This document shows, piece by piece, positions 9,864 to 11,824 of a stretch of DNA of 34,259 bases. The translations under genes were made by a program, and so were the position numbers. Where the stretch lies: the NCBI GenBank assembly GCA_026391595.1, contig JAPLDY010000094.1, forward strand, positions 1-34,259. The letters are read 5' to 3'. Positions within the stretch are counted from its first letter, which is position 1; each line of letters begins with the position of its first letter. The notes under the pieces were generated by a model. That model was not told the DNA's origin. It made no database searches and was given only the letters and a program-made list of their open reading frames with translations. This DNA is from Bacteroidia bacterium (GTDB taxonomy: Bacteria; Bacteroidota; Bacteroidia; Bacteroidales; VadinHA17).

Positions 9864-10892
9864 CTATTTGCTTTTATTCTGTTCCATTGTTGAAAGCAAT
9901 CCGCAGGCTGCCTGTATATCTTCTCCCCTTGACGTTCTTACAGTGGATAGAATCCCTTTGGCATTAAGTGCTTCCTTGAATCTGATTGTCGCAGCCATAT
10001 CGGGGCTCTCGAATTCTGAACCCGGTATTTTGTGAAACCTTATGATGTTAATCCTGCATTTAATGCCGTTGAGTATCCGTGCCAGCTCTTTAATATGTGC
10101 AGGTGAATCATTTACTCCTTTAAAGAGTATATATTCAAAAGAGACTCTTCTCTGGCTGTTGAAGTTGAAATCACGGATTATATCAAGTATATCCCTGACT
10201 GAGTTTGTTCCCTGTATAGGCATCAACGCCCGTCTCTCCTCGTCAAATGGGGAGTGAAGACTTACAGCAATATGGCACCGGCTCTTATCGAGGAACTCCT
10301 TAATGCTGTTTTTCAGTCCTATGGTGCTGACCGTTATCCGCGTGGGGCTCCACCCATATCCCCATTCAGAAGTAAGGATCTCAAGGCTCTTAAGGAGCTC
10401 TGCAGTATTGTCGAGGGGTTCACCCATTCCCATGAATACCATATTTGTCAGCCTGCCGAATTCCGGCATGCTCCTGAACTGGTTCAATATCTCATTGCAT
10501 GAGAGATTCCCCTGGAATCCCTGTTTACCGGTCATGCAGAATACGCAACCCATCTTGCATCCGGCCTGGGATGAAACACATATTGTAGCCCTGTCGTCAT
10601 CAGGGATAAAGGCAGTTTCTATATATTTGTCATCCAGTACTTTATATAGATATTTCTTTGTGCCATCCTTGCTTTCGGCGACATTTACAGGTTCTGAGAG
10701 GCCAATTTCATAATCAACAGAAAGGACCTCCCTCATCTTCTTCGAGAGATTGGTCATCTCATCAATCGTGGATATCTCCTTTTTATAAAGCCAATCAGCA
10801 ATCTGTCTTGCAGCAAACCCGGGAAGCTTAACCCGTTTTGTCACTGCTATCAGTTCATTCAGTGTTTTCCCGTATAGTTTCTCTTTAACCAT
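9864..10892 (-). CDS. rlmN: 23S rRNA (adenine-2503-C2) methyltransferase, radical SAM
   Basis: RlmN methylates A2503 of 23S rRNA and A37 of some tRNAs. The radical-SAM cluster motif CxxxCxxC is present as CKMGCVFC (C112, C116, C119 counting from the ATG at 10892). It is followed by MGMGEPLDN, ITVSTIGL, HIAVSLHSP and the late catalytic cysteine in AACGLLS (about C329). The ORF track start at 10910 is a TTG; the ATG six codons later gives the usual start MVKEKLYGKTLNEL. The product is 342 aa, a normal family length. It heads a tight minus-strand group with dacB. The gap to dapF upstream is filled by a long palindromic repeat. Confidence 0.95.
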   Translation of the reverse strand: MVKEKLYGKTLNELIAVTKRVKLPGFAARQIADWLYKKEISTIDEMTNLSKKMREVLSVDYEIGLSEPVNVAESKDGTKKYLYKVLDDKYIETAFIPDDDRATICVSSQAGCKMGCVFCMTGKQGFQGNLSCNEILNQFRSMPEFGRLTNMVFMGMGEPLDNTAELLKSLEILTSEWGYGWSPTRITVSTIGLKNSIKEFLDKSRCHIAVSLHSPFDEERRALMPIQGTNSVRDILDIIRDFNFNSQRRVSFEYILFKGVNDSPAHIKELARILNGIKCRINIIRFHKIPGSEFESPDMAATIRFKEALNAKGILSTVRTSRGEDIQAACGLLSTMEQNKSK

Positions 10893-10937
10893 TGAAAAAG
10901 AACCTGACAATATTCAGAATTTGATTAACAGGATCAT

Positions 10938-11036
10938 AAGAACTTACACAGAGTGACACAGAGGACCACAGAGATACACAGAGGTCAGACTCTGTGGCAC
11001 TCTGTGGTTCTCCGGATCTCCTCTGTGAAAGTTCTT
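10938..11036. repeat. 99-bp palindrome built of 10-bp-phased CACAGAG repeats
   Basis: Four copies of CACAGAG begin at exactly 10-bp steps (10947, 10957, 10967, 10977). The inverted word CTCTGTG follows at 10990, 11000 and 11021, with a degenerate copy (ctccgga) at 11010. The outermost arms, aagaacttacacagag and ctctgtgaaagttctt, pair with one mismatch. The element fills the dapF-rlmN gap. In RNA it could form a long hairpin and act as attenuator or stabiliser between the two genes; in DNA the helical phasing would place the sites on one face. CACAGAG-type intergenic repeats are, from memory, frequent in environmental Bacteroidota genomes. Confidence 0.75.
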
Positions 11037-11047
11037 CATCTTTTTTA

Positions 11048-11824
11048 TTATAGATTAATAATACCGTCGAAGACAAAAGTAGCTGGTCCGGTAAGCCATA
11101 TATTGGTTACCTTTCCATCTGTCACCTTGAATTCCACTTTGAGATTACCACCCCTGGCCCTAACATTTACAGGAGCTGTGTCAAAATGTCCAGCCAGCAC
11201 TGAAGCAATGGCAGAAGCAGTTACACCTGTACCGCAGGCCAGTGTCTCTTCCTCGACGCCACGTTCGAAAGTTCTGAGATATAATCCATTATCATTTACT
11301 TCGACAAAGTTGACATTGGTTCCGCCAGGGGAGAATTTTGGAGACCACCTCAGTCTTTTTCCTTCTTCATTGACATCCATCCTGTCGATATCAATGGTAA
11401 ATACCACATAATGCGGTGATCCGGTATTTATAAAATAGCTGCCATCGATGATCTTATATTCATTCACGTCTGCCATCTGGAGGCGGACTATATCATCCAT
11501 TACTTCTGCCTCATGAATGCCATCGAAGGCAATGAATTTCTGATTATTGCCTGCTATATTCCATTTCCTTGCAAAATGGGCGGTGCATCTTCCTCCGTTT
11601 CCGCACATGGAACCGGGCTTTCCGTCGGAATTGAAATATTTCATCTCAAAGTCAGCCTTGTCATTACCGGAGATAAGGATAAGCCCGTCGGCTCCAATGC
11701 CAAAACGGCGGTCGCATAATCTGTTAATAAGATTTGAATCAGCGGGATTAAATGTACCCTTACGGTTGTCTATGATAATGAAATCATTACCCGCTCCCTG
11801 GTACTTGTTAAAAGTTACCTTCAT
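11048..11824 (-). CDS. dapF: Diaminopimelate epimerase
   Basis: DapF converts LL- to meso-diaminopimelate for lysine and peptidoglycan synthesis, in the cytoplasm and without a cofactor. Both catalytic cysteines are visible: C74 in GSMCGNGGRC and C197 in TLACGTGVTASAIAS. Other family landmarks are the N-terminal KYQGAGNDFIIIDN, FGIGADGLILI and FINTGSPHYV. The 258-aa length is slightly short but within the family range. The ATG at 11824 gives the standard N-terminus. The gene is flanked on both sides by palindromic repeats and is divergent from the DegP gene. It may be read into rlmN-dacB through the palindrome. Confidence 0.95.
   Translation of the reverse strand: MKVTFNKYQGAGNDFIIIDNRKGTFNPADSNLINRLCDRRFGIGADGLILISGNDKADFEMKYFNSDGKPGSMCGNGGRCTAHFARKWNIAGNNQKFIAFDGIHEAEVMDDIVRLQMADVNEYKIIDGSYFINTGSPHYVVFTIDIDRMDVNEEGKRLRWSPKFSPGGTNVNFVEVNDNGLYLRTFERGVEEETLACGTGVTASAIASVLAGHFDTAPVNVRARGGNLKVEFKVTDGKVTNIWLTGPATFVFDGIINL

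Follow-up and report, generated by a model that had tools for sequence, protein, structure and literature searches.

A CACAGAG palindrome between dapF and rlmN is probably a gene-less copy of a GxxExxY nuclease-repeat element

The 99-bp palindrome that separates dapF from rlmN in a Bacteroidia bacterium is probably a gene-less, non-autonomous copy of an element in which inverted arrays of a 7-bp site surround a GxxExxY gene, whose product, a predicted nuclease, would maintain or spread the arrays. The palindrome lies in a 34,259-nucleotide stretch of contig JAPLDY010000094.1 (the window, meaning that whole stretch). Its parts, read directly from the sequence, are listed in Table 1, together with related features of the host genome. 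The repeat had been described in an earlier note on the same DNA; the link to GxxExxY is new here and absent from that note.

Table 1 Features of the palindrome, its setting, and related loci of the host genome. Positions without a contig name are those of the window.
Feature	Position	Strand	Description
Palindrome	10938..11036		99 bp in total
Outer tag, left arm	10938..10945	+	AAGAACTT
Left arm	10947..10983	+	CACAGAG x4 at 10947, 10957, 10967, 10977; exact 10-bp steps
Centre	10984..10989	.	6 nt, GTCAGA
Right arm	10990..11027	-	CTCTGTG at 10990, 11000, 11021; degenerate CTCCGGA at 11010
Outer tag, right arm	11029..11036	-	AAGTTCTT
dapF	11048..11824	-	TIGR00652; upstream in transcription
rlmN	9864..10910	-	TIGR00048; downstream gene
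Gene-bearing copy	C104:21670-22135		GxxExxY gene fills the centre position between the arms
GxxExxY gene	C104:21718-22068		
CGCAAAG family contigs (genome G000)	C99, C127, C129, C133, C175, C221, C250, C260, C261		

The architecture given in the earlier note is correct. The left arm carries four CACAGAG units in strict 10-bp register, the mirrored CTCTGTG arm with one degenerate copy completes the near-palindrome, and the two flanking genes are codirectional. The left-arm spacers are TGA, GAC, and ATA. In the right arm, one step is 11 bp, alongside the degenerate unit. The palindrome ends 11 bp from the stop codon of dapF.

The same note called the repeat common, and genome-wide counts bear this out. 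A count of the CACAGAG pair CACAGAGNNNCACAGAG in the 3.64-Mb host genome gives 74, against 0 for the reversed control, indicating that the repeat is not due to chance. The 74 pairs fall into about 30 clusters, a count based on stretches around exact pattern matches, which undercounts degenerate copies elsewhere. The tag followed by a unit, AAGAACTTNCACAGAG, is present in 21 copies. Within arms, 83 steps between units are 10 bp and 7 are 11 bp (calls at 2 and 8 are overlapping one-mismatch matches), so the spacing of the other copies is not random. Heptamer positions carry 1.4-2.0 bits each across the host-genome copies, and spacer positions about 0.4. Layouts differ: 8 of the 30 clusters are of the window type with the tags outside, 16 are inside-out with the tags central, and 6 are single-armed, two of them formed by the arms that flank a GxxExxY gene. 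Among the clusters with callable flanking genes, 28 are intergenic; one further cluster is at a contig edge and one is within a called open frame. They usually lie a few to some tens of bp past a stop codon, and the orientations of their flanking genes resemble those of all gaps in the same stretches, with no concentration between convergent genes. Inspection of the element sequences by eye revealed no target-site duplication, and divergence among the congeners is too great for empty sites to be placed to the base.

Several further features of the family were observed. In the inside-out elements (for example, C7:5372-5470, C72:3435-3540, and C104:16100-16202), the central AAGAACTT tags face each other, separated by an A/T-rich spacer that varies, with the arrays directed away from the centre. 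At C20:9505-9628 and C20:17063-17182, and on C26, C61, C116, C147, C154, and C187, a small palindromic insert, CCCGATAGCTATCGGGA or CCTGAACGAAGTGAAGG-like, separates array units, as if a second small repeat had entered the spacer. The genome also contains a second dispersed array family, made of CGCAAAG pairs (17 matches, mostly with 9-bp steps).

The host genome contains two GxxExxY genes, and both are enclosed by arrays. The gene on C104 is flanked by arms of the window type, including a degenerate TCCGGAG unit in the right arm. The window arms match these arms, tag and degenerate unit included, and thus recur as the terminal inverted repeats of a gene-bearing element. Given the shared arms, the palindrome appears to be the C104 element minus its gene. 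The degenerate unit (TCCGGAG/ATCCGGAG) is also present in many gene-less copies. The second gene, on C256, is enclosed by arrays of the sister words CACTAAG, CACAAAG, and CACCAAG.

The C104 protein is a clear member of TIGR04256/PF13366 (PDDEXK_3), scoring 152.7 bits against the curated TIGR04256 cut-off of 35, with an E-value of 4.8e-43 in a separate search. Residues G24, E27, and Y30 of the GxxExxY motif are invariant. Across 24 diverse members of the family, E27, Y30, D67, E77, K79, and Q91 are invariant and Y95 nearly so, an E...D...ExK plus QxxxY arrangement that we take to be the RecB/Cas4-type nuclease pattern. The AlphaFold model has a pLDDT of 95. Foldseek matches it best to LHK-Exo, lambda exonuclease, and the Cas4 protein SSO0001, every one with E above 0.001 and with sequence identity of only 12-15%; the Pfam Cas4 match is weak (E 0.011), and a search of the PDB found no sequence relative. 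On this model, GxxExxY is a minimal PD-(D/E)XK nuclease with a fold related to those of Cas4 and lambda exonuclease, and is predicted to cut. It shares the conserved E...D...ExK and QxxxY residues with that branch, but is only about 123 residues long. In the open-access full text, we found no function and no repeat partner for GxxExxY, PDDEXK_3, or PF13366, the papers naming GxxExxY contained an annotation entry only, and no published explanation of the palindrome was found under its repeat words, in line with the remark in the earlier note that such repeats are functionally unexplained.

The pairing of arrays with GxxExxY genes extends beyond this genome. Among 396 genomes of the phylum Bacteroidota, 186 have GxxExxY and 50 have CACAGAG pairs; the gene is present in 48 of the 50 genomes with such pairs vs 138 of the 346 others (p = 3e-15). 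We surveyed the flanks of 97 GxxExxY loci, a sample of the copies in each of 66 Bacteroidota genomes, for a pair of CRCNNAK motifs within 180 bp. A pair is present upstream at 61/97 loci, downstream in the inverse orientation at 61/97, and on at least one side at 72/97, while only 1.0-1.5% of distant windows in the same stretches score. The enrichment is 61/97 vs 40/3828 windows (p = 4e-81), with an orientation bias. The remaining 25 of the 97 genes have no pair by the strict motif, with visible variants at some. A wider set of 175 loci takes in 76 named loci spread over many phyla; array units are found at 162 of the 175 and at least three units at 148. The arrangement recurs in about ten other phyla, with examples in Planctomycetota, Alpha- and Betaproteobacteria, Chloroflexota, Acidobacteria, Verrucomicrobiota, Cyanobacteria, and Nitrospinota. 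The arms and the GxxExxY gene form one unit. One contig with the arrangement is labelled Methanothrix.

The step between units differs from locus to locus, with a mode of 10 at 38 loci, 9 at 33, and 8 at 25. The proposal that the sites lie on one face of the DNA therefore fits the host genome, where nearly all steps are 10 bp, but not GxxExxY loci elsewhere, and we reject helical phasing as a general property.

Each GxxExxY gene has its own heptamer. The mean distance between the 5' and 3' heptamers of the same gene is 0.58, compared with 1.59 between genes in one genome and 1.58 across genomes (permutation p about 0.001); the two arms of a gene match each other and do not match those of its paralogues within the genome. 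In 15 of the 17 genomes with several sampled genes, the words differ from gene to gene. The words also track the protein tree, requiring 67 changes vs a mean of 90 with shuffled labels, and the match persists if shuffling is confined to each genome (p = 0.04). The correspondence between heptamer class and genome-wide count is modest (p 0.04, 0.008, and 0.008). At one conserved site occupied by GxxExxY in L128, L129, L133, L134, L142, L140, and L197 (phylum-sample genus g10, probably Flavobacterium), the array heptamers drift among CACAGAG, CACAAAG, and CGCAAAG.

Heptamer base 5 (G or A) covaries with the adjacent core residues 3 and 4 at the N-terminus of GxxExxY, residue 3 corresponding to T7 of the C104 protein. 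When residue 3 is T, base 5 is G in 65 of 66 cases; when it is S or A, base 5 is A in 52 and G in 24. The best tree, from which the covarying columns were left out, has 29 independent pairs: at residue 3, 19.5 are concordant and 0 discordant (nominal p 1.9e-6), and at residue 4, 16.0 and 0.1 (3e-5), with the next column at only 0.002. The scan covered about 116 columns and four heptamer positions, with residue classes chosen from the same data. When only well-supported branches are used, 6-7 pairs remain (median p 0.125). The covariation is convincing on the best tree, subject to the few well-supported pairs. We infer that the nuclease binds the heptamers, and the covariation supports a direct reading of the DNA by the protein.

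Copy number and gene content vary within the genus. The number of AAGAACTTNCACAGAG copies in 31 congeners ranges from 0 to 84. The four genomes with the closest C104 orthologue (76-100% identity) have 21, 9, 19, and 84 tagged repeats, vs a median of 2 in the other 27 (p = 0.0013); genomes keeping the closest orthologue carry more repeats. The gene site and its neighbours are the same in all four, and 13 of the 31 congeners have no detected relative of the C104-type gene. At the orthologous site, G407, G409, and G397 have a more diverged GxxExxY gene with other words, G415 has a decayed gene, G396, G403, G413, G439, and G440, among others, have arrays without the gene, and G402, G404, G405, G406, G408, G411, G419, and G438 have no array. 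Gene-bearing, arms-only, and empty states therefore coexist at one orthologous site.

From these data, we propose the following mechanism. A complete element would consist of the GxxExxY gene with an array of its 7-bp site (CACAGAG in this case) on each side, the two arrays in inverse orientation. The nuclease would bind its heptamers and cut or nick at the inverted arrays, or at the hairpin they form. Cutting would lead, at low frequency, to array palindromes being copied or moved to further intergenic positions, in the way that RAYT acts on REPINs. The copy just past the dapF stop codon would be tolerated and otherwise inert. We infer mobility, cutting, and copying by GxxExxY from comparative analysis, and three observations count against spread by the nuclease. 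G372, a class relative with a 99%-complete genome, has 14 CACAGAG pairs, several of them palindromic, and no GxxExxY match. The CGCAAAG family has no matching gene in the host assembly, where neither of the two GxxExxY genes has its heptamer. The inside-out layout of about half the copies is unaccounted for by the model.

A homing model would reverse the relation between gene and repeat: the arrays pre-exist, GxxExxY is a free-standing homing-type nuclease that cuts array palindromes, repair then copies its gene into the gap, and the gene would parasitise the repeats instead of mobilising them. The position of the gene exactly between its own presumed recognition sites, the occurrence of one orthologous site both as arms alone and as gene plus arms, and the match of each gene to its own heptamer all speak for this model. 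However, the host genome has about 28 gene-less clusters vs one gene-bearing CACAGAG copy, leaving the cognate sites unfilled; the gene is fixed at one orthologous site in four species; and repeats are commoner where the close orthologue is present. We therefore regard homing as rather unlikely.

GxxExxY could instead be a domesticated site-specific nuclease that acts at dispersed arrays in recombination, repair, or chromosome organisation, with the repeats kept because they are useful. The ratio dN/dS at conserved sites is mostly 0.02-0.10, with a highest value of 0.13, which indicates strong purifying selection, and the gene is inherited at fixed sites. Relatives are found in 8 of 72,556 plasmids, whereas a set of 50,697 phage records has none. 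Selection, long vertical persistence, and near absence from plasmids and phages agree with a host function, but the spread of copy numbers within the genus, and the congeners that lack any relative of the gene, are patchy for an essential role, and a host function seems unlikely.

The note had also suggested that the RNA would fold into a long hairpin. An RNA-level element between dapF and rlmN could serve as a transcription terminator, an attenuator, or an mRNA 3'-end stabiliser. The fold itself is strong: in the dapF-to-rlmN direction, the predicted energy is -57.1 kcal/mol vs -28.2 for shuffles (z = -7.8), and the location of most copies shortly past stop codons suits such a device. However, facing 3-nt spacers are no more complementary than chance (0.24 vs 0.31 shuffled, p 0.85, from 11 spacer pairs only), with no covariation across the stem; flanking orientations follow the intergenic background; and an Rfam search gave no family at threshold, with sub-threshold microRNA matches only. 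The junction itself varies among congeners: G405 has a related, shortened copy, G407 and G398 have different palindromes, and G404 has none. In several congeners (L158 and L159, in G414 and G411), an unrelated TGAGGTGTGAGGCG-type tandem repeat is found there instead, so the junction tolerates different repeats. On the small sample of spacer pairs, we reject RNA covariation. Nearly invariant heptamers with non-complementary spacers fit inverted arrays of protein sites better than a selected RNA helix, and the strong fold looks like a by-product of such arrays. The data thus do not support helical phase and the RNA hairpin as selected features, and an RNA-level device is very unlikely. Hardly credible is an inert, decayed repeat that resembles GxxExxY flanks through past insertion near such genes: the shortened copy in G405 fits decay, but heptamers stay nearly invariant while spacers vary freely, and copy number tracks the gene.

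The nuclease-repeat reading resembles a known system. In REPIN-RAYT systems, the repeats have an end tag and the RAYT gene is flanked by the same repeats. RAYT genes are inherited vertically in single copy, are absent from plasmids, and are accompanied by more REPINs where present (PMC8049555). Likewise, the palindromes here are dispersed, intergenic, and end-tagged; GxxExxY is flanked by its own palindromic repeats, with the same heptamer on both sides; and the gene is low in copy, vertical, and rare on plasmids, with repeats commoner where it is present. Since the gene keeps its place, has its own repeats on both sides, and is accompanied by more gene-less copies where it persists, we propose that a PD-(D/E)XK nuclease is the core of a REPIN-RAYT-like system. 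The differences are that RAYT is a Y1/HUH transposase (PF01797); that the arrays here consist of diverse 7-bp units at 8-10 bp steps, whereas a REPIN is a single hairpin with a GTAG-type tag; and that one genome may carry several GxxExxY paralogues with different heptamers. A RAYT/Y1 transposase as the partner is rejected, the host Y1_Tnp genes having no heptamer arrays around them. As in MITEs, short gene-less, non-autonomous copies with inverted ends are related to a longer gene-bearing copy; unlike in MITEs, that copy encodes a PD-(D/E)XK protein and not a DDE transposase, its ends are tandem heptamer arrays, and it is fixed at one site in four species.

Whether these properties define a bacteria-wide class is, in our judgement, an evenly balanced question. 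In such a class, residues where the first helix begins would let each GxxExxY nuclease recognise a 7-bp word of its own, and the enzyme would spread or maintain inverted arrays of that word, independently of RAYT/REPIN and transposon/MITE pairs and with unrelated chemistry. If so, a nuclease family that is large, uncharacterised, and found in almost half of the sampled Bacteroidota genomes would gain a partner and a testable substrate, and abundant intergenic palindromes of many phyla would be explained. The residue-base covariation predicts the base preferred by each GxxExxY enzyme, and a nuclease of this small size whose 7-bp code can be read would be of interest for both genome evolution and protein-DNA recognition.
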